Assembly (NCBI GenBank): GCA_028819075.1
Contig: JAPPMM010000049.1
Span: forward strand, 62,001 to 126,000
Reading direction: 5' to 3'
DNA length: 64,000 bases
From: Gammaproteobacteria bacterium
Lineage (GTDB): Bacteria; Gemmatimonadota; Gemmatimonadetes; Longimicrobiales; Gaopeijiaceae
Below, piece after piece: positions 44,006-60,516 of this stretch (positions are counted from its first letter, which is position 1; the number at the start of each line of letters is the position of its first letter). A program made the translations under genes and the position numbers. The notes beneath the pieces were generated by a model. It saw only the letters and a list, made by a program, of their open reading frames with translations. It had not been told where the DNA came from and ran no database searches.

Positions 44006-45412
44006 ATGAGCGCGCTCGGGAAGGTGATCGCGGCCGCGCTCGTCGCTGCGCCGGCGGCGGCCCAGGGTACCAACGACCCTTTCCCCCGCCCGATCGAGAC
44101 CACCGAGGGCGTGATCGTGGTGGACTTCGTGGAGTTCGCGCGGCTGCCCGATGTCGACGGGGCGCCCGCCAGGATGATGCTCCTCGTCGACGAGCCCGGC
44201 ACGGGTCGCATGTTCGTAAACGACATGCGCGGCCCGCTCTACGCGGTTGGCTACGGCGGCGAAGCGGTTCGGCAATACCTGGACATCAACGATCCGCGTT
44301 GGGGGATCGGCGTCCACTCGCGCGGGGGCGAGAGGGGGTTCCAGAGCTTCGCCTTCCATCCGCAGTTCGGAGAGCCGGGAAGCCCGGGATTCGGCCGCTT
44401 CTACACTTGGACCGACACCGAGAACACGGATCCCCCTCCCGACTTCACGCCCGCGGGCGGCAACGACTCCCACGACACGGTCCTGCATGAATGGGTCACG
44501 CGCGACCCCGGAGCGGCGACCTACGACGGTGGCGCGCCCCGCGAACTCCTCCGGCAGCAGCAGCCTTTCGGCAACCACAACGGCGGCCAACTCGCCTTCA
44601 ATCCGACCGCGTCGGTCGGAGACCCCGACTTCGGGATGCTGTACGTCGGGTCTGCGGACGGCGGGAGCGGCGGCGACCCGTTGAACCTCTCACAGGACCT
44701 GGGCTCGGCGTTCGGGAAGATCCTGCGGATCGATCCCCTCGGGTCGAACAGCGCCAACGGGCAATACGGCATCCCCGCCGACAATCCCTTCGCCGGCGAC
44801 GGATCCGACGACACCCTCGGTGAGATCTACGCGTACGGCGCCCGCAATCCACAGCGCTTCGCCTGGGATCCGGAGACCGGCAACATGTTCATGGCCGACA
44901 TCGGCCAGAACATCGTGGAGGAGCTGAGCCTGGTGGAAGCGGGCGACAACCTGGGGTGGAACGTCTGGGAGGGCAGCTTCAGGTTCGTGAGCCGCCAAGA
45001 AGTCCGCCTCGAGAATCCGCGCGGCGACCCGGCGTTCCGGTATCCGGTCGCGGAATACGGCCAGCTGGATCCGCTGCTCCAGAGGCAGTCGGCCGCAACC
45101 GGCGTCCACGTCTACCGCTACGGGGCGATCCCCCAGCTCACCGGTCTCGTCCTGTTCGGCGACAACCCGAGCGGCGAGATCTTCTACATCAGCGCCGATG
45201 AGCTTCCGGACGGGGGGCAGGAGCCGATCCGGAGAGTCCTGCTCAACGACGGCGGCCAGACGAAGACGCTGCTTCAGGTGATCCGAGAGACGAACGCCTC
45301 ACAGGGGCGCGAGGCCGCGACCCGGGCGGACCTGCGCTTCGGTTCAGGGCCCGACGGTCAGGCGCTGCTGCTCAACAAGCGGGACGGCGTCATTCGCCTG
45401 CTGGTGCCCTGA
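44006..45412 (+). CDS. PQQ-dependent glucose/sorbosone dehydrogenase-like protein
   Basis: A 468-residue exported protein with a six-bladed propeller of the soluble aldose sugar dehydrogenase type. Family motifs include GFQSFAFHPQFG, GNHNGGQLAFNP, SAFGKILRIDP, YAYGARNPQRFAWDP and ADIGQNIVEELSLV. Such enzymes oxidise sugars or other alcohols in the periplasm with PQQ and pass electrons to an acceptor. A short signal ends at AAAQG. A GGAGGG site precedes the ATG. It converges with the ankyrin gene, 15 bases away. The exact substrate is unknown; some family members lack PQQ. Confidence 0.88.
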   Translation: MSALGKVIAAALVAAPAAAQGTNDPFPRPIETTEGVIVVDFVEFARLPDVDGAPARMMLLVDEPGTGRMFVNDMRGPLYAVGYGGEAVRQYLDINDPRWGIGVHSRGGERGFQSFAFHPQFGEPGSPGFGRFYTWTDTENTDPPPDFTPAGGNDSHDTVLHEWVTRDPGAATYDGGAPRELLRQQQPFGNHNGGQLAFNPTASVGDPDFGMLYVGSADGGSGGDPLNLSQDLGSAFGKILRIDPLGSNSANGQYGIPADNPFAGDGSDDTLGEIYAYGARNPQRFAWDPETGNMFMADIGQNIVEELSLVEAGDNLGWNVWEGSFRFVSRQEVRLENPRGDPAFRYPVAEYGQLDPLLQRQSAATGVHVYRYGAIPQLTGLVLFGDNPSGEIFYISADELPDGGQEPIRRVLLNDGGQTKTLLQVIRETNASQGREAATRADLRFGSGPDGQALLLNKRDGVIRLLVP

Positions 45413-45427
45413 CGCCTGACTTGATCC

Positions 45428-47221
45428 TCAGCAGGACAGGCAGTTGTCGTTGTTGTGCGCGCCCAGGCTCTCCAGCAGTGCCAGCGCCTCGGGGAAGGGC
45501 TGGATGCGCTGCACCGGGCCGTTCGCCATGTCCGCGGTGGTCTGACCCCGGCGGCTGACCGCCATCACGTCGGCTCCCCGGTCCGCGAGATAGCGGATCA
45601 ACTCCACGTCCCCTCTCGCGGCGGCGTGATGGAGGGCGTTGTAACCGTTGTGGTCGCGGGCGTTCACATCGACCCCCAGTTCCTCGACCAGGTATCTGAC
45701 GGAGGGCAGCCAGCCGTTCGGGGCGTGCCGGTGCGAGTTGCCCGCGTAGCCCTCCCCGTAGCCCACGCCCGAGGCGGCGTGAATCGGGTACACCCCGGGG
45801 CCTCCCACCGGGGCCGGCGGCAGCCCGGAGGGATCCTCGGTGTCCGCACCGCGCCTGCGCCGCTCGGGGGGCTTCATGGTAGGGATCGACGGATCGGCGC
45901 CGTACGACACGAGCAGCTTCATGGCCTCCACGTCGGTCCCGTAGGCGGCCCGCCAGAAGGGGGTGGCGCCCTGGGTGTCCACCCGCAACAGGTCGAAGGT
46001 GTAGGACATGTACCACAGGTGCCGGGTCAGGCGCGCGTTGGGATCGGCACCGGCTTCGAGCAGCGCCTCCATCAGCTCCAGGTAGGTGATCTGCTGCTGC
46101 TGATAGGCCTGTTGCTGAGGATAGCGCGACTTCGGGACCCAGTAGGCGTTGATGGTGGCGAACAACGGTGTCGCCCCGGCGTCGCTGGCGGTGCGTGGAT
46201 CGGCTCCCCGGCCGAGGAGAGTCATGGCCAGGTCGAAGTGACCGTTGATGGTCGCCATGAGCAGCGGGCTGGTGTGGTCGCCGCCGCTCGCGCCGTTGAT
46301 GTCCGCGCCCGCGTCCAGCAGCGCCCGGGCCGTCTCCACGTGCCCCTCGCGAACCGCGTGCAGGAGCGCCGTCATCCCGCCCTGGGCACCCACCAGCCCC
46401 GTGTATCCGGGAAAGGCGTCCGGGGCTACTTCCGCCTCTTCCTGTTCGGATGCGGCCTGGGACCTCGAGGTCTGCACCTCGTGGCCGGCCCGCACCGCGG
46501 CCTGCACCTGCTCGGGCGTGGGCCGCCAGGAGCGCGGGTCCTCGGTCTGCGCCCGGAACCCCTCCAGCACTTCGTCCCGCGCCTCCCCCGCCTCCCGGTC
46601 GACGGCCGCGAGGTCCACGATGTCCACGACCCGGGTGCGGAGCGTGAGGTCGGCCCCCAGCGCCAACAACGCCCGCACCGCCTCAACCCGGTCGTTGGCC
46701 GCGGCGAACATGAGCGGCGTCTGTGCCCGCTCCGACTCTCGGGCATCGACTTCGGCGCCGTGGCGGGCGAGGGCGGCCACCGCATCCGCGCTGCCGGCTC
46801 CGGCCGCGAAGTGCATGGCCGTCACGGCGCCGGTCGCGGTCACCGCAAGGGGGTCGCTCCCCGCTTCCAGCAGCGCCTCCACGGCGCCGGCGCTCCCCGC
46901 TTTGGCGGCGAGGTGCAGCGGGGTGTAGTCACCGATACGGGTGACGGCGTCGACGGTGGCCCCGGCGTCCAACAGGACGCGCAGCAGGGCGGCGTCGGCC
47001 CGCTCCGAGGCCCAGTGCAGCGCGGTCATGCCGTCGCCCTGGGGGAGGTTCACGTCGGCGCCCCGGGCGATCAGTGCCTCCACGGCGTCCGCGTCTCCCC
47101 GCATGGCCGCGTCCGCCACCGGCGAGTCGGCGGCGGGGGCGGCCCACAGCAGAAGCGCGACAACTCCTGCGCTCAGCCGGAACCCCCGTCTCCGCAGCGG
47201 GGCAATCTGCGGTGCGCGCAC
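45428..47221 (-). CDS. secreted ankyrin-repeat protein with C-terminal CxxC tail, cassette A
   Basis: A 597-residue exported ankyrin protein and the third gene of cassette A. After a signal peptide (about 12-32) come ADSPVADAAMRGD and about ten ankyrin repeats in two blocks (about 37-190 and 270-560), split by a charged linker near 210-265. A conserved insert, GVGYGEGYAGNSHRHAP, precedes the last repeats. The chain ends in HNNDNCLSC. The protein at 51260-52975 has the same plan and the same type of tail. It starts with GTG overlapping the DUF1552 stop as TAGTG, so it is coupled to it. Ankyrin repeats bind proteins; here they would act outside the cytoplasm. Confidence 0.85.
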   Translation of the reverse strand: MRAPQIAPLRRRGFRLSAGVVALLLWAAPAADSPVADAAMRGDADAVEALIARGADVNLPQGDGMTALHWASERADAALLRVLLDAGATVDAVTRIGDYTPLHLAAKAGSAGAVEALLEAGSDPLAVTATGAVTAMHFAAGAGSADAVAALARHGAEVDARESERAQTPLMFAAANDRVEAVRALLALGADLTLRTRVVDIVDLAAVDREAGEARDEVLEGFRAQTEDPRSWRPTPEQVQAAVRAGHEVQTSRSQAASEQEEAEVAPDAFPGYTGLVGAQGGMTALLHAVREGHVETARALLDAGADINGASGGDHTSPLLMATINGHFDLAMTLLGRGADPRTASDAGATPLFATINAYWVPKSRYPQQQAYQQQQITYLELMEALLEAGADPNARLTRHLWYMSYTFDLLRVDTQGATPFWRAAYGTDVEAMKLLVSYGADPSIPTMKPPERRRRGADTEDPSGLPPAPVGGPGVYPIHAASGVGYGEGYAGNSHRHAPNGWLPSVRYLVEELGVDVNARDHNGYNALHHAAARGDVELIRYLADRGADVMAVSRRGQTTADMANGPVQRIQPFPEALALLESLGAHNNDNCLSC

Positions 47222-48654
47222 TACCGGCTCCCGCCGGAGGGACCGGCAGCGTCGGTCGCCACCGCCGGGTAGCTCAACCGGAACTCGCCCGTGCTGTCGC
47301 CGAAGCTGTCCCTGTCGTCGTGCCCCAGGGCGTGCAGCATGCTCAACATCACGTTGGCCATCGGGGTGCCGTCCGGAGCCTTCAGGTGCAGCCCGCCTTC
47401 ATGGCGCCCGTTCGCGCCGCCCAGCACGATGAGCGGACAGCGGCGATGGTTGTGCAGGTTCCCGTCCGCCATCGGCGAGCCGTAGATGACCATGGTCTTG
47501 TCGAGCAGCGTGGCGTCGCCCTCCGTCGTCTCCTCCAGCTTCTGCAGGAGATACGGAAGCTGCCCCGCCTGGAAGGTGTTGATGCGGGCGAAGTCGAGAA
47601 TCGCCTCCTCGTTGCCCCCGTGATGCGAGGCCGGGTGGAAGGCCTTGTCGATGCCGCTCTCGGTGTAGACCCGCGAAGACGCGTCACGGCCCGTCTTGAA
47701 GGAGAACACGCGCGTGACGTCGGACGCGAAGGCCAGCACCTGGATGTCGAACATGAGCTGCATGTGCTCGGTGAAGGAGTCCGGGACTCCGGCCGGCGCC
47801 TCGGGCAACTCGCGCGGCTCTCCGCTGGTGTTGCGGTTCTCGATGCCCTCGATTCTCCGCTCCAGCTCGCGGACGTTCTCCAGGTAGCGATCCAGGCGCT
47901 GCTGGTCGTCCTGCGCAAGCGCTCGCCTGAGATACGCGACCTCCCCGGCGATCCAGTCGAGAATGCTCCCGTCGGTCCGTCTGCGCGCGGCGCGCTCCTC
48001 GGGCGTGCCTCCGGCCCCGAACAGCATCTCGAACGCCACCCGCGGGTCACGGATCATGGGAAGCGGCTCGGTGGACGAGGCCCAGCTGATGGTGTCGGTA
48101 TAGACGCACGAGTACCCGTACGCGCACCCCCCCGACTGGTCCACGTTCTCGATGCAGAGCTGCATCGAGGGGATCGGCGTGTCCTGCCCGAAGCGCTGCG
48201 CGTGGATCTGGTCCATCGACGTGCCGACATAGACGTCCGAGCCCCGCGTCTGCCGTGGATGGGCCTGCGTCAGGAAGACGGCGCTCGAACGGAAGTGGTC
48301 GCCGCCGATCTCGTGGGGCATCCTGGCCTCGGCCATCCGCACGTCGGTGTTGCTGATGATGGTGAGGCGGTCGCGGTAGGGCTCCAGCGGAAGCAGCGAA
48401 CTGGAGGAGAGGTCGAAGTTGCGGCCGGTCGCCTCGGGAGACCACAGGTACTGGGTGGCGCCCCACTCGTTGCAGCCCGCCGCTCCGTGCACCATCTCGA
48501 TGGCGACCAGGCGGGTGGCGGGTTCGGCCGCCGCGCGCCGTGACCAGACGCCCCCGGCGGGGATCATGGCGTCCAGGAAGGGCAGGGCGACGGTCGCGCC
48601 GGCTCCGCGCAGGAAGGTACGACGGGGGATGTGTGTCCCGGTGATGAAGTGCAT
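47221..48654 (-). CDS. Tat-exported DUF1552 protein, cassette A
   Basis: A 477-residue DUF1552 protein. It opens with a Tat signal (PRRTFLRGAGATVALPFLDA). The body carries the conserved segments MVHGAAGCNEWG, SNTDVRMAE, FLTQAHPRQT, VGTSMDQ, SMQLCIENVDQSGGC and FHPASHHGG. The fold resembles the alkaline-phosphatase/sulfatase-like DUF1501/1552 group of unknown activity. The ATG at 48654 is preceded by GAGGAG; a GTG at 48660 is too close to that site. It follows the DUF1592 gene by 84 bases and overlaps the ankyrin gene by one base. Such proteins are nearly always found beside DUF1592 cytochromes, so they likely work together. Confidence 0.93.
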   Translation of the reverse strand: MHFITGTHIPRRTFLRGAGATVALPFLDAMIPAGGVWSRRAAAEPATRLVAIEMVHGAAGCNEWGATQYLWSPEATGRNFDLSSSSLLPLEPYRDRLTIISNTDVRMAEARMPHEIGGDHFRSSAVFLTQAHPRQTRGSDVYVGTSMDQIHAQRFGQDTPIPSMQLCIENVDQSGGCAYGYSCVYTDTISWASSTEPLPMIRDPRVAFEMLFGAGGTPEERAARRRTDGSILDWIAGEVAYLRRALAQDDQQRLDRYLENVRELERRIEGIENRNTSGEPRELPEAPAGVPDSFTEHMQLMFDIQVLAFASDVTRVFSFKTGRDASSRVYTESGIDKAFHPASHHGGNEEAILDFARINTFQAGQLPYLLQKLEETTEGDATLLDKTMVIYGSPMADGNLHNHRRCPLIVLGGANGRHEGGLHLKAPDGTPMANVMLSMLHALGHDDRDSFGDSTGEFRLSYPAVATDAAGPSGGSR

Positions 48655-48738
48655 CTCCACTCTCCTCGGATGGTTCGTCGCCGCTCGGGGGTGGGCAGGG
48701 CAGCCGGGTGCGTCTTCCGCCTCCGGCTGCCGGCGCGC

Positions 48739-51228
48739 CTACCGGTCGGGCGGCTGCGGGGCGCTCTCCGCCAGCGCCTCGGGTACCCTCTTGGATCTGA
48801 AGGCGTCGCTCTTCACCACGCCCGCAATGAAGGACGACATCCTGTATTCCTCTTCCGCCGCCTCCGCCACGATGGCGCGGATGGCGGGCTGATCGTAGTA
48901 CTCGGTCCGGCGGCCCAGCGCGTACGTCATCAGGTTCGCCGTAAACGTACGGATGAGCGGTTCCGGCCGCCGCAGGAGCGCCTCGCGCAGGTCGTCGGGG
49001 CTCGCGACCGTGCTGCCGTCGTAGAAGGTGCCCCGCGTGTCGAGCGGCATGCCGTGCTCGCGGATGCGCCACTTCCCGGTCACGTCGTAGTTGTCCAGCG
49101 CCAGCCCGATGGGATCCATGAACTGGTGGCAGGCGTTGCACGCCGGGTTGGCACGGTGCTTCTCCATGCGCTCCCGGGTGGTGAGCATGCGTCCGCCTTC
49201 CGAGTCCTCGGTCTCCTCGAGGTCCGGGATGCCCGGCGGCGGAGGGGGCGGAGGCGTCCCCAGAAGGACCTCCATGACCCACTTCCCGCGCAGCACCGGC
49301 GAGGTGCGGTTCGCCACCGAGGTCAGGGTGAGGATGCTCCCGTGACCCAGCACGCCCCGCCGCTCGGCGCCGGGATACGCCACCTGCCGGAACTGGCTGC
49401 CCAGCACCCTGGGGATGCCGTAGTGCCGCGCCAGGCGCTCGTTCACGAAGGTGTAGTCGGCGTCGTACAGATCGAGAACGCTCCTGTCTGCCTCGACCAG
49501 GTGGTTGAAGAACAGCTCGGTCTCGCGCAGCATGGCGTCGGCGAGCTGCTGGTCGTAGTCGGGGAACCAGAACTGGTCGGGGCGAACCAGCTCCAGATCC
49601 TGCAGGCGCAGCCACTGGCCCGCGAACCGGGGTCCCAGGGAAGCCGCGCGCGGATCGGCCAGCATGCGCCGCACCTGTGCTTCCAGGACCTGGTCCCGTG
49701 AAAGCGCGCCTTCCCGCGCCAGCGCCATCAGCTCGTCGTCCGGGGGCGTGCCCCAGAGGAAGAAGGACAGCCGCGAAGCCAGATCCACGTCGCCGATCCG
49801 GAAGGTCTCGCCCGGCTGGATGTCGGCCGGCGCCTCCTCCATGCGGAACACGAAGTGCGGGCTCGCCAGGATGGCCGTCAGCGCGGCGCCGATGCCCGCC
49901 TCGAAGCCGCCCTCCGCCTCGCCGGTGCGGTAGAAGGCCATGAGCGGCGCGATGTCGCGCTCGAGCAGGGGCCGGCGGTACGCCTTGCCGGCAAGCTCCG
50001 TCAGGATGCTGCGCGCGCAGCTCTCGCTCTCCTGCGCCAACTCGGGGCGGCAGGTGAAGATCCGTTGACGGCTCGGGGTCTCCGAGACGCCGGACGCGTC
50101 GATGGGCCCGCCGATCACCAGGTCCCGAAGGTGTGGAAGCAGCGTCAACCCGTAGCCGCTGATGCCCGTGTGCCGGTCCGCCAGCGACCATTCGTGGGGC
50201 GACATGAGGTCTTCCACCGGTCCCTCCGTGCGCTTGACGAACGCCGCGGTCACCCGCTGCGGCCCGGCGCGCACGAAGACCGGATCCGTGCGCATGGAGA
50301 TGCCTTCCGGATCGGAAATGTGCATCCACTGGTCCACGTCCAGCAGCGCCACCCGCTCGCCGTTGATCGAGACCTCGAGCTGCTCGAAGCGGGCGATCTG
50401 GCCGAAGAAGCCCTCGCCCGTGGTGGTGTGCTCGAAGACGATGCGGAACTGGTAGGTGCCGTCAGCGGGGAAGTGGTGAACCACGCTCACGCCGCCGCGC
50501 GTGCCGTAGGGCGCCCCGGGCACCCGCTCGCTCTGGGAGACGTAGCCGGAGACCGTGTAGGTCCGCTCGGCGGGCTGGGCGCCGGGGTTGCCGATGGCCA
50601 GGCGGCTGATCTGGTTGGCCGCGTTCATGTACGCGTCGAGGAGCGTGGGCGAGAGCAGCTGCGCCTCGGAGATGTTGTCGAAGTTCGCGCTCTTGGTGTC
50701 GGGCGGCAGATAGTCACCGGCGTCGATGCGCAGGTTCAGGAGGTCCTCGATCGACCTTGCGTACTCGGCCTGGTTGAGCCGTTGGAAGGTGCGTCCGCCG
50801 GGGTTGGGCGCCTCGCGCGCGGCCGCGTCCATCCTCGCCTCCAGCTCCTCCACCAGCGCCACGAGGGTGTCGCCCGCGGGCCGGGGCATCCCGGGGGGAG
50901 GCATCATCCCCGCACGCAGCTTGAGGATCATCTTCTCCGCGGTCTCGGGCCGCGACGGCGCCTGCTCCACGTCGAACCCGGCGAGCGAAAGATTGCCCGT
51001 CAGGAGCGCGTCGTTGTGGCACACCTGGCAGTAGCGCTGCACCACGGCGGTAAGGGTGGCTGGCGCGATGGAGGTGTGGGCGAAGTCCGCAACCGGCGCG
51101 TGGGAAGCTCCGTCCAACGCGGCCCGGCCCGGGGACACACCGGTGTCGGTGACCGTGTCGAGGTCTCCGAAGGTTCCCAGTACAACCGATATCAGGCCCA
51201 GCAGTCCGACAGTCGTGACGTTTTTCAC
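48739..51228 (-). CDS. DUF1587/1595/1592/1588/1585 cytochrome-like protein, cassette A
   Basis: An 829-residue exported protein. An N-terminal heme site CQVCH (Cys67, Cys70, His71) in a cytochrome c-like domain is followed by DUF1587 (LNQAEYARSIEDLL), a carbohydrate-binding-like beta domain (about 225-345), then DUF1595 and DUF1592 (YRRPLLERDIAPL, LASRLSFFLWGTPPDDEL). DUF1588 (ADYTFVNERLARHYGIP, TSPVLRGKWVMEVLL) comes next, with a second heme site CNACH (Cys697, Cys700, His701), then DUF1585 at the end. Likely a periplasmic redox enzyme of unknown substrate. It starts with GTG, 31 bases after the ankyrin gene of cassette B. Confidence 0.93.
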   Translation of the reverse strand: MKNVTTVGLLGLISVVLGTFGDLDTVTDTGVSPGRAALDGASHAPVADFAHTSIAPATLTAVVQRYCQVCHNDALLTGNLSLAGFDVEQAPSRPETAEKMILKLRAGMMPPPGMPRPAGDTLVALVEELEARMDAAAREAPNPGGRTFQRLNQAEYARSIEDLLNLRIDAGDYLPPDTKSANFDNISEAQLLSPTLLDAYMNAANQISRLAIGNPGAQPAERTYTVSGYVSQSERVPGAPYGTRGGVSVVHHFPADGTYQFRIVFEHTTTGEGFFGQIARFEQLEVSINGERVALLDVDQWMHISDPEGISMRTDPVFVRAGPQRVTAAFVKRTEGPVEDLMSPHEWSLADRHTGISGYGLTLLPHLRDLVIGGPIDASGVSETPSRQRIFTCRPELAQESESCARSILTELAGKAYRRPLLERDIAPLMAFYRTGEAEGGFEAGIGAALTAILASPHFVFRMEEAPADIQPGETFRIGDVDLASRLSFFLWGTPPDDELMALAREGALSRDQVLEAQVRRMLADPRAASLGPRFAGQWLRLQDLELVRPDQFWFPDYDQQLADAMLRETELFFNHLVEADRSVLDLYDADYTFVNERLARHYGIPRVLGSQFRQVAYPGAERRGVLGHGSILTLTSVANRTSPVLRGKWVMEVLLGTPPPPPPPGIPDLEETEDSEGGRMLTTRERMEKHRANPACNACHQFMDPIGLALDNYDVTGKWRIREHGMPLDTRGTFYDGSTVASPDDLREALLRRPEPLIRTFTANLMTYALGRRTEYYDQPAIRAIVAEAAEEEYRMSSFIAGVVKSDAFRSKRVPEALAESAPQPPDR

Positions 51229-51259
51229 CGTGCTTCGCCCGTTGGATGCCGCTGCGTCT

Positions 51260-52975
51260 TCAGCAGGACTGGCAGTTGTTGTTGTTCAGGGAACCGAACG
51301 ACTCCAGCAGCGCGATCGCGTCCGGATAGGGCGTGGTGCGCTGGTAGGGCCCGTTAGCCATGTCGGCGGTCGTCTGGCCGATGCGGCTGATCGCCATCAC
51401 GTCCGCGCCGCGTTCCACCAGGAAGCGGATCATCTCGGTGTCTCCGCGGGAAGCCGCGTGATGCAGCGCGTTGTAGGCGTCGTGATCACGCACGTTCACG
51501 TCCGCCCCCAACTCATCCACCAGGTAGCGCATCGCGGGCATCCAGCCGTCGGGCGCGTGGCGGTGGGCGTTGGCCGCGAACCCCTGCCCGTAGCCGACAC
51601 CGGAAGCCGCGTGAATGGGATAGATGCCCGGGCCGCCGACCGGCACTGCGGGAATCCCCGACTTGTCCGCGCCCGGATCCTCGTCCCAGGCGATGCGGCG
51701 GCGCGGAGGCGGTCGCTGCGTCGGCACGCGGTGGTCGGCCCCGTACGCGACCAGCAGCCGCATCGCTGCGACGTCGGCCGCGTAGGAGGCGCGCCAGAAG
51801 GGCGTTGCGCCGATCATGTTGACGCTCAGGATGCTCCCGCCGTACTGGGTGAACCAGAGCCGCTTGGAGAGCCGCGTGTTCGGGTCGGCCCCCGCCCGCA
51901 GGAGCGCCTCCATGACCTCCATGTGGGTGGCGTGCTGCTGGAGGTGAACGTTGGGCTGGGCGTACCCGGTCTTGGGGATCCACTGCTGGTTGATGGTGGC
52001 GAAGAGGGGCGTGCCGCCCGCGTGGTTGGCCAGGTTCGGGTCGGCGCCGCGCTCCAGCAGCGCGAGGGCCATGTCGAAGTGGCCGTTCAGGGCGGCGATG
52101 AAGATGGGCGTGGTCCCGTCCGCGCTGACCTGATCGATGTCGCTGCCTGCGTCGAGAAGCGCCTCGACGGCCCCGGCGTGACCCTGGCGCGCCGCGTGCA
52201 GCAGGGCGGTCATGCCGCCCATGTGCCCGACCTGCTGCCCCATGGAGAGGGGCTTGGGCGCCTCGGCCGGCTTCTCTTCCTCTTCGCCCTCTTCCTTCTG
52301 TTCCTGCGCCGCCCTGGCGGCGAGCTGGGCGTTGATCTGCTGGCGCACTCGGTCCTGTTCGCCGCCGCGGAGCGACTCCTCCAGCTCGACCATATCCACC
52401 ACCGTGGTGGCGAGCGACGGGTCGGCCCCTCCCGCGATCAGCGCCCGGATCGCCTCCACCCGGTTCTGCGCCGCGGCGAAGATGAGCGGCGTCTGCTCGG
52501 CCCGCTGCTCGCGCGCGTCCACGTCGGCCCCGTGCTCGATGAGCGCGGCGACCGCTTCCGCATCACCCGCGGCGGCCGCCAGGTGCAGCGCGGTGGCGCC
52601 GCCGCTGCCGGTAGGCGCCGCCGGGTCGCTCCCCGCCTCGAGCAGGGCGCGCACCACCGCCCCGTGGCCCGCCCGGCTGGCCAGGTGCAGTGGCGTGTAC
52701 TCGGCCATGCGGGTCACCGCCTCCAGGCCGGCGCCCGCGTAGACGAGCATGCGGGCCATTTCGAGGTCGCCGCGGTCGGCCGCCCAGTGGAGCGCGGTCA
52801 TGCCGTCGCCCTGGGCGGCGTTGACGTCGGCCCCCTGCTGGAGCAGCGCGCGCACCGACCCTTGATCGCCGCGCATGGCCGCGTCTGCGACCGGCGAGTC
52901 CGGCGGCGTCGCCGCCGAAACCAGGAGGGCCAGGACCAGGGCGGCCACGAGCGCCCCGGGCCTTCGCGTATCCAT
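51260..52975 (-). CDS. secreted ankyrin-repeat protein with C-terminal CxxC tail, cassette B
   Basis: A 571-residue exported ankyrin protein, paralogue of cassette A's third gene. Signal peptide about 7-22, then PDSPVADAAMRGD, two blocks of ankyrin repeats split by an acidic linker (KEEGEEEEKPAEAPKP near 225), the insert GVGYGQGFAANAHRHAP, and the end LNNNNCQSC. The start is chosen at ATG 52975 because GGGAG lies eight bases upstream; in-frame ATGs at 52996 and 53011 would add short Lys/Arg-rich extensions. It lies 113 bases after its DUF1552 gene and 31 bases before the next cassette. The readable frame further upstream is an antisense-like artefact over the DUF1552 gene. Confidence 0.85.
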   Translation of the reverse strand: MDTRRPGALVAALVLALLVSAATPPDSPVADAAMRGDQGSVRALLQQGADVNAAQGDGMTALHWAADRGDLEMARMLVYAGAGLEAVTRMAEYTPLHLASRAGHGAVVRALLEAGSDPAAPTGSGGATALHLAAAAGDAEAVAALIEHGADVDAREQRAEQTPLIFAAAQNRVEAIRALIAGGADPSLATTVVDMVELEESLRGGEQDRVRQQINAQLAARAAQEQKEEGEEEEKPAEAPKPLSMGQQVGHMGGMTALLHAARQGHAGAVEALLDAGSDIDQVSADGTTPIFIAALNGHFDMALALLERGADPNLANHAGGTPLFATINQQWIPKTGYAQPNVHLQQHATHMEVMEALLRAGADPNTRLSKRLWFTQYGGSILSVNMIGATPFWRASYAADVAAMRLLVAYGADHRVPTQRPPPRRRIAWDEDPGADKSGIPAVPVGGPGIYPIHAASGVGYGQGFAANAHRHAPDGWMPAMRYLVDELGADVNVRDHDAYNALHHAASRGDTEMIRFLVERGADVMAISRIGQTTADMANGPYQRTTPYPDAIALLESFGSLNNNNCQSC

Positions 52976-53088
52976 TCTCCCCGCTCCCGCTTTCATTCCC
53001 TTTTCGCGCATCCTCTCTCTCATCTGCTCTCCAGTGTGCGCGTCATATCCTCGAATACGTGAGTCTCGACGGTCGCCCTCGCGTCCGC

Positions 53089-54516
53089 CTATCTGCTGGA
53101 GCTGCTTGCGTCGGCGGCCGCCACCGCTGGCAGCGACAGTGCGAATTCGCCGGTGCTGTCCCCGAAGTCCTCCAGGTCGTCCAGCCCAAGCTTGTGCAGC
53201 ATGGTGAGCATCACGTTGGCCATGGGCGTGTCGTCGGGGGCGTGCAGGTGCAGGTTGCCCTCGAGCTGGCCGTTGGCCTTGCCGGCGAGGAACATGGGCA
53301 CCCGCCGGTGGTTGTGGACGTTGGGGTCGCCCATGGGCGATCCGTACAGCACCATGCTGCGGTCGAGCAGGCTCGCGTCCCCGTCCATCGACTCGTCCAT
53401 CTTCTCCAGCAGGTACAGCATCTGACCCGTGAAGAACTCGTTGAACTGCTGGAACTTGAGGATCTCCTCGTGGTTGTTGCCGTGGTGCGACGTGGGATGG
53501 AACGGCAGATCCAGGCCGCTCTCCGGATACACCCGGTTGGTGGCGTCGCGCGAGAGCTTCAGGGTGAAGACCCGGGTCATGTCGGTCTGGAAGGCCAGCA
53601 CCTGCAGGTCGAACATGAGCTGCAGATGCTCGGTGAAGGAGTCGGGGACGCCCGCCGGGGCTTCCGGCAGCGCCCGCTCCTGGCCGCTCGCGTTCTGCTC
53701 CTCGATCATCTGAATGCGGCGCTCGAGTTCGCGCACGTTGTCCAGGTACTGCTCCAGCCGCACCCGGTCCTCGCCGGCCAGCACCATCCTCAGCTCGGCC
53801 ACCTCGCCCGCGATCCAGTCCAGGATGCTGCGGTTGGCCTGCCGCCGCTCGGCGCGCGCCTCGGGGGTTCCGCCCGCTCCGAAGAGCATGTCGAAGGCCA
53901 CCCGCGGGTCGCGGATCATCGGCAGCGGCTCGGTGGGGGAGGCCCAGCTCAGGGTGTCGGTGTATACGCAGGCGTAGCCGTAGGCGCATCCGCCCGCCTG
54001 ATCCACGTTCTCGATGCAGAGTTGCATCGATGGAATGGGCGTCTCCTGGCCGAAGCGCTGCGCGAACAACTGGTCCATCGACGTTCCCACGAAGACGTCC
54101 GATCCCTCGGTCTGTTTCGCGTGCGCCTGGGTGAGGAAGGTCGCGCTCGAGCGGAAGTGATCCCCGCCGATCTCGGGCGAGGTGTAGGCGTCCGCCATGC
54201 GCACGTCCGTGTTGCTCACGATGGTGAGGTAGTCCTGGAAGGGGGCGAGCGACTTCATGGCCGTGGGGCTCAGGTCGAAGTCGCGGCCGGTCTTCGCGGG
54301 CGACCACAGGTTCTGGGTCGCTCCCCACTCCGTGCACCCGGAGGCGCCGTGCACGATCTCGACGGCGATGAAGCGGGTCTTCTCCAGGTTGGCCGAAGCC
54401 CGGGCCCATCCCGCGCCCGCGGGCACCATGGCGTCCAGGAGCGGGAGCGCGAGGGATCCGCCCATCCCGCGCAGGAAGGTACGCCGGTGGATGTGTTTGC
54501 CGGTGAGGAAGTTCAT
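53089..54516 (-). CDS. Tat-exported DUF1552 protein, cassette B
   Basis: A 475-residue DUF1552 protein, closely similar to the cassette A copy. Tat signal HRRTFLRGMGGSLALPLLDA; body motifs IVHGASGCTEWG, SNTDVRMAD, FLTQAHAKQT, VGTSMDQ, SMQLCIENVDQAGGC and FHPTSHHGNN. The ATG at 54516 follows GGGAGGCAAACTG, a strong site; an earlier ATG at 54582 would overlap the upstream gene and precede the Tat motif by 30 residues. It lies 31 bases after the DUF1592 stop. Activity unknown. Confidence 0.93.
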   Translation of the reverse strand: MNFLTGKHIHRRTFLRGMGGSLALPLLDAMVPAGAGWARASANLEKTRFIAVEIVHGASGCTEWGATQNLWSPAKTGRDFDLSPTAMKSLAPFQDYLTIVSNTDVRMADAYTSPEIGGDHFRSSATFLTQAHAKQTEGSDVFVGTSMDQLFAQRFGQETPIPSMQLCIENVDQAGGCAYGYACVYTDTLSWASPTEPLPMIRDPRVAFDMLFGAGGTPEARAERRQANRSILDWIAGEVAELRMVLAGEDRVRLEQYLDNVRELERRIQMIEEQNASGQERALPEAPAGVPDSFTEHLQLMFDLQVLAFQTDMTRVFTLKLSRDATNRVYPESGLDLPFHPTSHHGNNHEEILKFQQFNEFFTGQMLYLLEKMDESMDGDASLLDRSMVLYGSPMGDPNVHNHRRVPMFLAGKANGQLEGNLHLHAPDDTPMANVMLTMLHKLGLDDLEDFGDSTGEFALSLPAVAAADASSSSR

Positions 54517-54547
54517 CAGTTTGCCTCCCAGGACGTTCAGCCCTTCT

Positions 54548-56974
54548 TCAGTTGGATGACGTCTCCTCCGTGAGGAGCGCATCCGTACGCTTCATGGAGA
54601 ATGCGTCGCTCTGGACCACGCCCAGTATGAACGACGACATCCGGTAGTCGTTGGCCTCCGCCTCGCGCGTGATCTCGCGGATCGCAGGCTGGTCGTAATG
54701 CATGACGCGGCGCCCGAGCGCGTACGCCATCAGGTTCTTGGCAAAGGCGCGCACGATCGGAATGGGGCGTTTGAGGAGCACGTCGCGCAGGTCGCCCGGG
54801 CTCGCCACGGTGGTTCCGTCGTAGAAGGTGCCGCGGGTGTCGAGCGGCATCCCGTACTCGCGCACCCGCCACTCCCCGGTCACGTCGAAGTTGTCGAGCG
54901 CCAGCCCGATGGGATCCATGAACTGGTGGCAGGCCTGGCACACCGGGCTGGCCCGATGCTTCTCCATGCGCTCGCGCGTGGTCAGGACCTTGCCCTCCTC
55001 GGTGCCTTCGGTGGCCTCGAGCGCCGGAACGTCGGGCGGAGGAGGCGGAGGCGGGGAGTCCAGAAGCACTTCCATGACCCACTTGCCGCGCAGCACGGGC
55101 GACGTGCGGTTCGCCATCGAGGTGAGCATGAGGATGCTGCCCTGCCCGAGGAGCCCGCTGCGGCGGTCGTCCGGGTACGCGACGCGCCGGAAGCTGTTGC
55201 CTGCGACATCGGGGATGCCGTAGTGGGCGGCGAGCCGCTCGTTCACGAAGGTGTAGTCCGCGGTGAGGATTTCGAGCAGGCTGCGGTCCTCCTGCACCAG
55301 ATTCTGGAAGAAGAGTTCCGTCTCGCGCCTCATCGCGTCCGACAGCGTCAGATCGAAGTATGGGAAGGTGTAGATGTCCGGCGCCACCTTGTCCAGGTCC
55401 TGCAGGCGCAGCCACTGCGATGCGAAGCGGGTCGAGAGCGCTTCGGAGCGGGGATCCGCCAGCATGCGCTGCACCTGTCGCTCGAGTTCATCCTCGTCGT
55501 CGAGCCTCCCGCGGCGCGCCGCCTCCATCAGCTCGTCATCCGGAGGAGAGCCCCAGAGGAAGAAGGACAGCCGCGAGGCGACGGCGGCCCCGTCGAGCTC
55601 GTATTGCTCGCCGGCGCGCGTGCCCGAGGGCGGCTCCTCGAAGCGGAAGACGAAGTGCGGGCTGGCCAGCAGCGCCTGAAGCGCGAAGCGAATGCCGCGT
55701 TCGAAACCTCCCTCATCGGCTCCGATCTCGTAGAAGGCCATCAGGTCGGCGATGTCGCTCTCGGTGGCGGGACGCCGGTAGGCGTCGGTGGCCAGGCGCG
55801 AGAAGATGCTGCGGGCGCACGTGGGCGCCTCTTCCGGAGAGGTTGGACGGCAACTGAAGATCTTCTGCCGGCTCGGCGTCTCCGATACGCCCGTAACGTT
55901 GTTGGGGCCACGCACCGCGAACTCGCGCAGGTGCGGCACCGTGGTGAGCGCCAGGTCGGGCCAGCCGCTGTTGACGGCGCGGCCGAGAGGCGCGCGCACT
56001 TCCTCCACCGGCCCCTCGAAGGTCCTGACGAACGAGGCGGAAACGCTGCGGGGACCGGCGCGCACGAAGATGGGGTCGGTGACCATCTCCCGGCCCTGCT
56101 GCTCGTTCTCCGTTCCTCCGCGCAGGTTCACGTCCAGGAGGGCCACCCGCTCGCCGTCGAAGGAGACCTCGATCTTCTCGCCGGTCGCCCTGCCGCCCAC
56201 GCCGTGGAACTGCATCCAGAACACGTATTCCCCGTCCGCCGGGAAGGTGTGGTTGATGGCGATGCCGCCACGCGACCCGTATGGCGTGCCCTCCACGTGG
56301 ACGAGCTGCGATGCGCGCTTCTCGACCTTGTAGGCCACCTCCCGCGGCGAGGCCTCGCGGTCTCCGATCGCCAGCCGGCTGATCTCGCTGGCCGCGTTGA
56401 GGTACGCTTCGAGCAGCGTCGGCGAGAGCATCTGCACGTCGGCGATGTTGTCGAAGTTGGCGCTCTTGGTGTCCAGAGGAAGGTACTCGCCGGCGTCGAT
56501 GTCGAGGCCGAGCAGGTCCTTCACCGACTGCGCGTATTCCGCCCGGTTGAGGCGCTGGAAGGTGCGCCCCCCGGGGTTGGGGTTGCGGCGCGCGGCATCG
56601 TCTATGGTGTTTTCGAGCGTCTCGGCCAGGGCCAGCAGGGTGTCGCCGGCGGGACGGGGCATGCCGGGCGGGGGCATCATGCCGGCACGCAGCTTGCGGA
56701 TCATGCGCTCGGCCGTCTCGGCCCTCTGCGCGGCCGCCTCAACCTGGAAGCCGGACAGGGTCATGTTGCCGGTCAGGAGCGCGTCGTTATGGCAGACCTG
56801 GCAGTACCGGGCCACAACCTCGGTGAGGGTGGCGGCGGGGAGGTCGGAGTCGGCGGCCGCGTGGTCCGCGGGTGGTGCCGGAGCGGGAGGGGCGTCCGTG
56901 AACAAGCCGCTTCCGCTCGCCCCGATCATCAGGGCGACGCCCAGGACGGCCGTGGCGCCAGAGAGTGCATTCAT
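54548..56974 (-). CDS. DUF1587/1595/1592/1588/1585 cytochrome-like protein, cassette B
   Basis: An 808-residue paralogue of the cassette A protein with the same domain order. Signal peptide about 1-24; heme motifs CQVCH (Cys58, Cys61, His62) and CQACH (Cys679, Cys682, His683). DUF1587 shows LNRAEYAQSVKDLLGL; DUF1588 shows ADYTFVNERLAAHYGIP and LRGKWVMEVLL. The start at ATG 56974 is supported by GGAGG seven bases upstream. It is the first gene of the six-gene minus-strand run (cassettes B then A). The 184 bases to the divergent PKD-like gene should hold both promoters. Confidence 0.93.
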   Translation of the reverse strand: MNALSGATAVLGVALMIGASGSGLFTDAPPAPAPPADHAAADSDLPAATLTEVVARYCQVCHNDALLTGNMTLSGFQVEAAAQRAETAERMIRKLRAGMMPPPGMPRPAGDTLLALAETLENTIDDAARRNPNPGGRTFQRLNRAEYAQSVKDLLGLDIDAGEYLPLDTKSANFDNIADVQMLSPTLLEAYLNAASEISRLAIGDREASPREVAYKVEKRASQLVHVEGTPYGSRGGIAINHTFPADGEYVFWMQFHGVGGRATGEKIEVSFDGERVALLDVNLRGGTENEQQGREMVTDPIFVRAGPRSVSASFVRTFEGPVEEVRAPLGRAVNSGWPDLALTTVPHLREFAVRGPNNVTGVSETPSRQKIFSCRPTSPEEAPTCARSIFSRLATDAYRRPATESDIADLMAFYEIGADEGGFERGIRFALQALLASPHFVFRFEEPPSGTRAGEQYELDGAAVASRLSFFLWGSPPDDELMEAARRGRLDDEDELERQVQRMLADPRSEALSTRFASQWLRLQDLDKVAPDIYTFPYFDLTLSDAMRRETELFFQNLVQEDRSLLEILTADYTFVNERLAAHYGIPDVAGNSFRRVAYPDDRRSGLLGQGSILMLTSMANRTSPVLRGKWVMEVLLDSPPPPPPPDVPALEATEGTEEGKVLTTRERMEKHRASPVCQACHQFMDPIGLALDNFDVTGEWRVREYGMPLDTRGTFYDGTTVASPGDLRDVLLKRPIPIVRAFAKNLMAYALGRRVMHYDQPAIREITREAEANDYRMSSFILGVVQSDAFSMKRTDALLTEETSSN

Positions 56975-59418: not shown

Positions 59419-60516
59419 CTAGCTCACGCGAGTCAGCAACTCCGGGTCATAGAGATCCGCCACAAACTCCCCGTACCCGTTGAAGAGCTCCGTCGGCTGG
59501 GGTGTGTTGCTGGGCAGATGCCGCTCCGTCGCCTGTGACCACGGGGTTCCGACGTCCGGATTGACGTTGGAGTAGAAGCCGTACTGGTTCGGCGCGTAGT
59601 CCGACCAGAACGTCGCCGGTTGCGTCTCCGTGAACTCCACCTCCAGGAAGGCCTTCGCGCTCTTGTAGCCGTACTTCCAGGGAAGCGCGAGCCTGAGCGG
59701 GGCCCCGTTCTGCTTGGGCAGGGGCTCCTCGTAGGCGCCCGTCACCACGAAGGCGAGGTCGTTCATGGCCTCATCGAGCCGCAACGCCTCGTAGTACGGC
59801 CACGGCCAATGTGAACCGCTTTCCTGTCCGACCGCCTCTTCGGGCCGGTGGAAGCTCCGGAAGGCGACGTAGTTGGCCGATGACTGGGGCTCGGCGAGTT
59901 CGATCAGCTTGCGCAGGGGATAACCGCTCCAGGGGACGGCGATCGACCAGGTCTCGACGCAGCGCAGGCGATAGAGCCGCTCCTCGATGCCGAACATGCG
60001 CTCGAGCGCGTCGATGTCCCAGGTGGCGGGAGCATTGCACAGTCCGGAGAAGGTCACCGTCCAAGGACGGACCCGGAACGGGCCGGTCAGCCTCCACATG
60101 TTTCCGGCCCTTTGCAGGAACTCGTAGTAGTTGTTGTACGTGGACGCGACGCCGCGGTCGGTGATCGCTCGCGAGCCCAGCGTATAGGTGATATTGCGCT
60201 CCGCCGGATACAGGTCGGCATTGGGGGATGCGCAGATGGTGTGCAACGGGTCTCTCGGCGGATCGTCGTCGCACGTGGGCGGGTTGGCATCCGGCGGGGT
60301 TACGGGCTGAGTGGGATCCGCGGGATCCGGCGGCGGATCCGGCTCGACGGGATCTTCTTCGTTCGCGATGAACTTGGAACCGCACGCCGCCGACCCGAGC
60401 GCGGCCATCCCGAGACCCAGTGCGCGCACGAATTCGCGACGCCGGAGATACACCCCGTGGGGTGTCGCCTCGGATTCCGGGATTCGCCACCCGGGCGGAA
60501 TAATGATGTTCGCCAT
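59419..60516 (-). CDS. msrP: MsrP/YedY-like molybdopterin oxidoreductase, Tat lipoprotein-like
   Basis: A 365-residue sulfite-oxidase-fold enzyme. MsrP repairs oxidised methionine in periplasmic proteins. Cys186 in YRLRCVETWSIAVPW is the molybdenum ligand; WSGYPLRKLIE follows as in MsrP. The N-terminus has LRRREFVRALG (Tat, Arg25-27) and ends in LGSAAC, so Cys45 may be lipidated. A 50-residue linker rich in Pro and Asp (about 52-100) with Cys82 and Cys95 follows; ordinary MsrP lacks it. No msrQ heme partner lies next to it. It is about 70 residues from the DUF4249 gene's stop on the same strand. Confidence 0.85.
   Translation of the reverse strand: MANIIIPPGWRIPESEATPHGVYLRRREFVRALGLGMAALGSAACGSKFIANEEDPVEPDPPPDPADPTQPVTPPDANPPTCDDDPPRDPLHTICASPNADLYPAERNITYTLGSRAITDRGVASTYNNYYEFLQRAGNMWRLTGPFRVRPWTVTFSGLCNAPATWDIDALERMFGIEERLYRLRCVETWSIAVPWSGYPLRKLIELAEPQSSANYVAFRSFHRPEEAVGQESGSHWPWPYYEALRLDEAMNDLAFVVTGAYEEPLPKQNGAPLRLALPWKYGYKSAKAFLEVEFTETQPATFWSDYAPNQYGFYSNVNPDVGTPWSQATERHLPSNTPQPTELFNGYGEFVADLYDPELLTRVS

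Follow-up and report, generated by a model that had tools for sequence, protein, structure and literature searches.

The locus lies in a 64,000-nucleotide stretch of DNA (hereafter the window) from a sponge-associated Gemmatimonadota genome and comprises six minus-strand genes. Briefly, these genes form two three-gene units (named cassettes A and B), each running DUF1592–DUF1552–ankyrin, and the open reading frames and Pfam domains claimed for them in the first-pass annotation were all recovered (Table 1). The domains DUF1587, DUF1595, DUF1592, DUF1588, and DUF1585 score above the Pfam cut-off in this order in both DUF1592 proteins, and the two CxxCH sites per protein (C60-H64 and C681-H685 in copy B) are invariant across the alignment. 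The DUF1552 proteins begin with the Tat-type start RRTFLRG, and both ankyrins, which share 60% identity, carry a Sec-type signal sequence, as read from the sequence; the periplasmic or surface location suggested earlier would agree with these signals. For DUF1552-B, the ATG at 54516 is the likelier start, though the reading frame is open to 54582.

Table 1 Genes of the two cassettes, with positions given in the window.
Gene	Product	Position	Strand	Basis
Ankyrin A	Exported ankyrin-repeat protein, 597 aa, ends NNDNCLSC	45428..47221	-	Ank_2/Ank Pfam matches
DUF1552-A	Tat-type exported DUF1552 (HXXSHH) protein	47221..48660	-	PF07586, E 2.4e-85
DUF1592-A	Diheme c-type protein, DUF1587-1595-1592-1588-1585	48739..51228	-	Pfam; two CxxCH sites
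Ankyrin B	Exported ankyrin-repeat protein, ends NNNNCQSC	51260..52975	-	Pfam; start ATG at 52975
DUF1552-B	Tat-type exported DUF1552 protein	53089..54516	-	PF07586, E 1.1e-84
DUF1592-B	Diheme c-type protein with CBM35/6-like beta-sandwich	54548..56974	-	Pfam; AlphaFold2 model; Foldseek

All the gaps are short, and two joints, the one between cassettes A and B and the one between DUF1592-B and DUF1552-B, measure 31 bases each. The earlier claim that the gaps are kept in both cassettes holds for their shortness and not for their lengths: the DUF1592–DUF1552 gap is 78 bases in A versus 31 in B, and the DUF1552–ankyrin gap is -1 versus 113. The reported overlap of ankyrin A with DUF1552-A was confirmed as 1 base between the stop of the one and the start of the other (TAGTG). 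Transcription of the six genes as a single message is plausible. Upstream of cassette B, at 59419-60516, the window also encodes an oxidoreductase of the molybdopterin-binding type (PF00174) whose N-terminus starts like an RR signal, and such a protein was seen again upstream of DUF1592 in five loci.

Profile searches of the source genome identified 12 DUF1552 proteins, 12 DUF1592 proteins, and 12 ankyrins of the cassette family, with an ankyrin directly after DUF1552 in 12/12 cases. Ten three-gene cassettes are complete, and the window's own contig holds five cassettes. Contig C24 has SusC-SusD followed by DUF1552-ankyrin, with a DUF1592 gene after the ankyrin; on contig C19, SusC-SusD is likewise followed by DUF1552-ankyrin with no DUF1592 at that place, and a DUF1592 gene on contig C59 completes the total of 12. 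A Pfam Ank_2 search gave around 16 ankyrin genes in this genome, 12 of them in the cassette family.

Searches with the ankyrin as query yielded 78 loci from named genomes, belonging mainly to Gemmatimonadota and also to Acidobacteriota, Woeseiaceae, and one deltaproteobacterial MAG; some records are labelled Gammaproteobacteria or Euryarchaeota, probably in error. The closest ankyrins are 100% identical (RHO2_bin_50) and 89% identical (a BD2-11 clade bin), Candidatus Palauibacter is among the more distant records, and the titles of some cassette-bearing genomes indicate groundwater, soil, and a hot-spring-type bin. Wherever the contig suffices, the order DUF1592–DUF1552–ankyrin is found at nearly all 78 loci; at one locus (L080), the ankyrin occurs without DUF1552. 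Since these loci were derived from the ankyrin, DUF1552 was resampled independently of it. It is present in 112 of 298 Gemmatimonadota genomes, in 23 of 149 genomes from the phylum of a Vicinamibacterales MAG, and in 6 of 299 from the phylum of a Woeseiaceae MAG. One Vicinamibacterales genome (G298, locus L066) carries 43 DUF1552 genes, an extreme expansion of the family, and another genome from the same phylum search (G380) has 38 candidates.

We read the regions around selected DUF1552 places, mostly one per genome, together with plasmid records, and sorted the DUF1552 proteins into classes A, B, and C by their scores against a profile of the window-type family, class A being window-like. 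The sampling drew on the better-scoring of the listed DUF1552 matches, and the class proportions are therefore not population frequencies. An ankyrin lies directly downstream in 41/41 class-A places with room, with one further case at a contig end, and adjacent, either downstream or upstream, in 21 of the 27 class-B places with room. Five class-B places with room showed no ankyrin nearby, and at L150, scored as lacking one, an ankyrin lies 1.9 kb downstream. Among the distant DUF1552 proteins of class C, which include those of Planctomyces SH-PL62 and Sphingobium, an ankyrin was found in 0/11. Pairs mostly lacking the ankyrin were thus encountered in class C only and not in classes A and B, and the proposal of an exported ankyrin as a fixed third member of the cassette is strongly supported by the counts in the source genome and in these classes. 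The class-B ankyrin stands either downstream or divergently upstream, which indicates that the association outlasts changes in gene order. Following almost every close relative of the partner genes in other genomes, the ankyrin resembles a fixed working part of a previously undescribed redox module. Two loci (L091 and L099) hold DUF1592-DUF1552-DUF1592-DUF1552-ankyrin arrays in which one ankyrin is common to two pairs. A class-B DUF1592-DUF1552-ankyrin set was also seen on a nearly unannotated plasmid record of Novosphingobium sp. KACC 22771 (L184), possibly a cultivable host.

Three gene trees built from 84 complete cassettes allowed the history of the units to be compared. The pairwise correlation among the trees is r 0.71 to 0.82, and 31 to 36 well-supported splits are common to tree pairs while 6 to 10 are contradicted. 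For the ten complete cassettes of the source genome, the correlations are r 0.62 for DUF1592/DUF1552 (p 0.0005), 0.62 for DUF1552/ankyrin (p 0.008), and 0.36 for DUF1592/ankyrin (p 0.05); since these ten share one genome, their agreement is not attributable to species history. The trees are therefore largely concordant, bearing out the idea that the cassette genes share a history: they have mostly moved as units, with some gene exchange.

The tandem duplication assumed in the first-pass annotation did not survive this comparison. Cassettes A and B do stand on the same strand, in the same order and 31 bases apart, and the adjacent pair is retained in the close relatives L047-L049, as would be expected if one cassette had recently been copied to give the other. 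However, they are not sisters for any of the three genes, their common ancestor spans 71 to 84 of the 84 sequences, and copy A has, depending on the gene, 31 to 59 other sequences that stand nearer to it than does copy B. Outside the immediate relatives, the nearest cassettes to DUF1592-A and ankyrin A are those in L072, L063, L065, and L059, and those nearest to cassette B are L050 and L051, all in other genomes; DUF1552-A groups with another cassette of the window's contig. Because A and B are non-sister, the adjacent pair is not a recent tandem duplication, an origin that we regard as extremely improbable. On these phylogenies, the window cassettes are old paralogues standing side by side, and what the three trees refute is recent duplication; the pair may still go back to an ancient duplication, with long divergence since.

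The ankyrins themselves are conserved along their length. The alignment of 106 sequences opens with a mature N-terminus resembling SPVADAAMRGD, runs to the C-terminal end, and includes conserved non-repeat motifs such as GDGMTALHW and TPFWRA; a hydrophobic N-terminal stretch is present in 88 of the sequences. A C-x-x-C lies within the last residues in 102/106, and 83/106 have no cysteine apart from the N-terminus and this tail. The tail is missing from the class-B ankyrins and from a few of class A; in class B, a GDGxTxLHWA-like motif is found in 17/23 and TxFWxA in 5/23. Two of the twelve source-genome ankyrins (L044 and L045) end in a Pro/Gly/Arg-rich stretch without CxxC, and their DUF1552 partners lack C189. 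CxxCH is absent from all 106 aligned ankyrins, which rules out the terminal CxxC as an ordinary c-type heme attachment site. At L128 (8955-11729), one polypeptide joins an ankyrin of class B to a domain that bears a CVSCH c-heme site and looks like squalene-hopene cyclase; stand-alone relatives of the fused domain were seen in 14 further Gemmatimonadota genomes of the sample.

The L128 fusion raises the question of whether the tail is a functionless leftover of an ankyrin–cytochrome fusion, the repeats alone counting, as a scaffold. The class-A tails indeed resemble CVSC minus the His, but a functionless remnant would not persist in 102/106 sequences, and the domain fused in L128, which begins around 60 residues beyond the repeats, stands alone elsewhere. 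With a single fusion at hand, such a stump is not established, and we consider the leftover reading improbable. C189 of DUF1552 is found in 88/93 pairs with a tailed ankyrin versus 0/30 class-B DUF1552 proteins, whose ankyrins are tailless, in counts uncorrected for kinship. This covariation between C189 and the ankyrin tail, to which exceptions exist, is suggestive. The ankyrin might be a thiol-bearing arm, for docking or cofactor delivery, of a new periplasmic enzyme class, and its CxxC would contact C189 of DUF1552 (with C199/C205) or the apo-heme site of DUF1592; we offer this as a tentative and rather unlikely possibility. If true, c-type cytochrome enzymes would have in the ankyrin a dedicated factor for maturation or relay, present twelve-fold in one genome.

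For the partner proteins, a sequence search of solved structures gave no convincing homologue of DUF1552 or DUF1592, and their folds were predicted. The AlphaFold2 model of DUF1552-B has a pTM of 0.77 and a mean pLDDT of 69, being weak at residues 131-165 and 190-215. Its top Foldseek matches are sulfatases, LtaS/LtaP, and alkaline phosphatases (probability around 1, TM around 0.3, from a model that is partly weak). H142, D170, H362, H366, and H423 are retained in nearly all classes of DUF1552, with H362 and H366 scored invariant, and C199/C205 are retained solely in the ankyrin-associated classes. The model of DUF1592-B (pTM 0.80) includes a beta-sandwich that matches CBM35/CBM6 in Foldseek. 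With a predicted fold like that of sulfatases and alkaline phosphatases, DUF1552 is more likely a metal-dependent protein of a hydrolase fold. The earlier description of the locus as a redox system accordingly fits the diheme DUF1592 protein but sits less well with DUF1552.

SusC and SusD are the commonest clusters in the flanks of the cassettes, which also contain peptidase, creatininase-like, and amidohydrolase genes. Of the 17 SusD genes, 7 lie within 10 kb of a cassette versus 1.0 expected (p 3e-5, a value that ignores gene clustering and islands), and SusC-SusD stands directly before DUF1552-ankyrin in two of the twelve sets only (C19 and C24). No CAZyme family or glycoside hydrolase was found among the annotated flanking clusters; with peptidases and amidohydrolases there instead, a carbohydrate substrate is uncertain. 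The sugar dehydrogenase at 44006-45412, which had been suggested to feed the same electron route, is found next to the orthologous locus only in a small number of near relatives, and it is therefore not part of the module.

We propose that the cassette encodes an exported module of a diheme cytochrome and a hydrolase-fold protein, which has its own dedicated ankyrin partner in the periplasm and is probably linked to TonB-dependent uptake, a reading for which we judge the chances to be even. The DUF1592 protein, a c-type diheme cytochrome with a modelled CBM-like beta-sandwich, would probably bind the substrate and pass electrons. The Tat-exported DUF1552 protein, with its predicted sulfatase/alkaline-phosphatase-like fold, would probably act on the same substrate. 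The Sec-exported ankyrin solenoid may serve both as a dedicated binding partner, most likely a periplasmic scaffold or a maturation chaperone for cofactor-bearing proteins, comparable to AnkB for the catalase KatB and Cj1386 for the catalase KatA, and in class A its C-terminal Cys-x-x-Cys would probably provide a thiol, disulfide, or metal contact. In this scheme, imported organic matter would be the target of DUF1592 and DUF1552, with the ankyrin holding, stabilising, or maturing the two. Twelve divergent sets, several of them near SusC/SusD-type TonB receptors, look like a substrate-specialised periplasmic oxidation family rather than one duplicated operon.

Two other explanations place the ankyrin or the substrate differently. 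The module could be an electron-transfer or stress-response unit without any imported substrate, its SusCD neighbours reflecting gene-rich islands. PSCyt/PSD and DUF1552 genes of R. baltica respond to stress and regulation (PMC2754498), and the SusD clustering statistic takes no account of island structure; however, the SusC-SusD pairs that immediately precede DUF1552-ankyrin in two of the twelve sets and the predicted sugar-binding-like sandwich on DUF1592 argue for a substrate, and we regard the unit without one as unlikely. Alternatively, the ankyrin may be a eukaryote-like effector or surface protein directed at the sponge host, its co-transcription with the cytochrome/DUF1552 pair being incidental. 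Its export signal would suit this role, and sponge-associated MAGs, including Gemmatimonadota, are enriched in ankyrins interpreted as symbiosis factors (PMC8163846). Yet the same ankyrin occupies the same place in genomes titled groundwater, soil, and hot-spring-type bin, it follows DUF1552 in every class-A place with room, and its conservation over the full length to the last residue seems untypical of host-facing effectors; a host effector is thus very unlikely in our view. The cassette ankyrins also bear on the 'eukaryote-like' ankyrin count of sponge Gemmatimonadota, which has been interpreted as host manipulation (PMC8163846). With 12 of the roughly 16 source-genome ankyrins in the cassette family, such proteins may form much of this count, although they are also present in genomes titled groundwater, soil, and hot springs.

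A literature search that covered few subscription journals returned no paper connecting ankyrins with DUF1552/DUF1592. Ever since the first planctomycete genome, cytochrome systems of the DUF1592/DUF1552 type have stood without a function, a question that a fixed third partner narrows. Verrucomicrobia and Planctomycetes both have PSCyt3-type genes that keep a fixed neighbour and have no assigned function (PMC5615132, PMC2754498), and those of Verrucomicrobia usually adjoin one family of unknown genes (PMC5615132). The planctomycete-specific PSCyt3/PSD type has the same cytochrome domain order and the same DUF1552 neighbour as the cassette, whereas the cassette has an exported ankyrin as its fixed third gene. 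The plasmid pair of Planctomyces SH-PL62, unlike the cassette, has DUF1080 downstream and no ankyrin. The plasmid pMSHV of Sphingobium herbicidovorans (L186) also bears a DUF1592-DUF1552 pair near a TonB receptor, but its DUF1552 is a distant one of class C, after which cytochrome c and cytochrome b genes stand in place of an ankyrin. SDR, VOC, flavin monooxygenase, and Rieske genes come next there, and this gene set hints that the substrate of class C may be aromatic or steroid. SusCD polysaccharide-utilisation loci resemble the cassettes in the SusC/SusD-type genes enriched near the latter, whose annotated flanks differ in showing peptidases and amidohydrolases and no glycoside hydrolases. 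Periplasmic bacterial ankyrins that serve neighbouring heme enzymes are known from the catalase systems AnkB-KatB of Pseudomonas, Cj1386-KatA of Campylobacter, and AnkB-CatB of Xanthomonas (PMC10294975). In these systems, as in the cassette, a bacterial ankyrin is encoded beside a heme protein, a likeness of gene arrangement. In contrast, the cassette ankyrins have no catalase for a partner but a diheme c-type cytochrome together with DUF1552, and they are longer than the catalase partners and end in CxxC.
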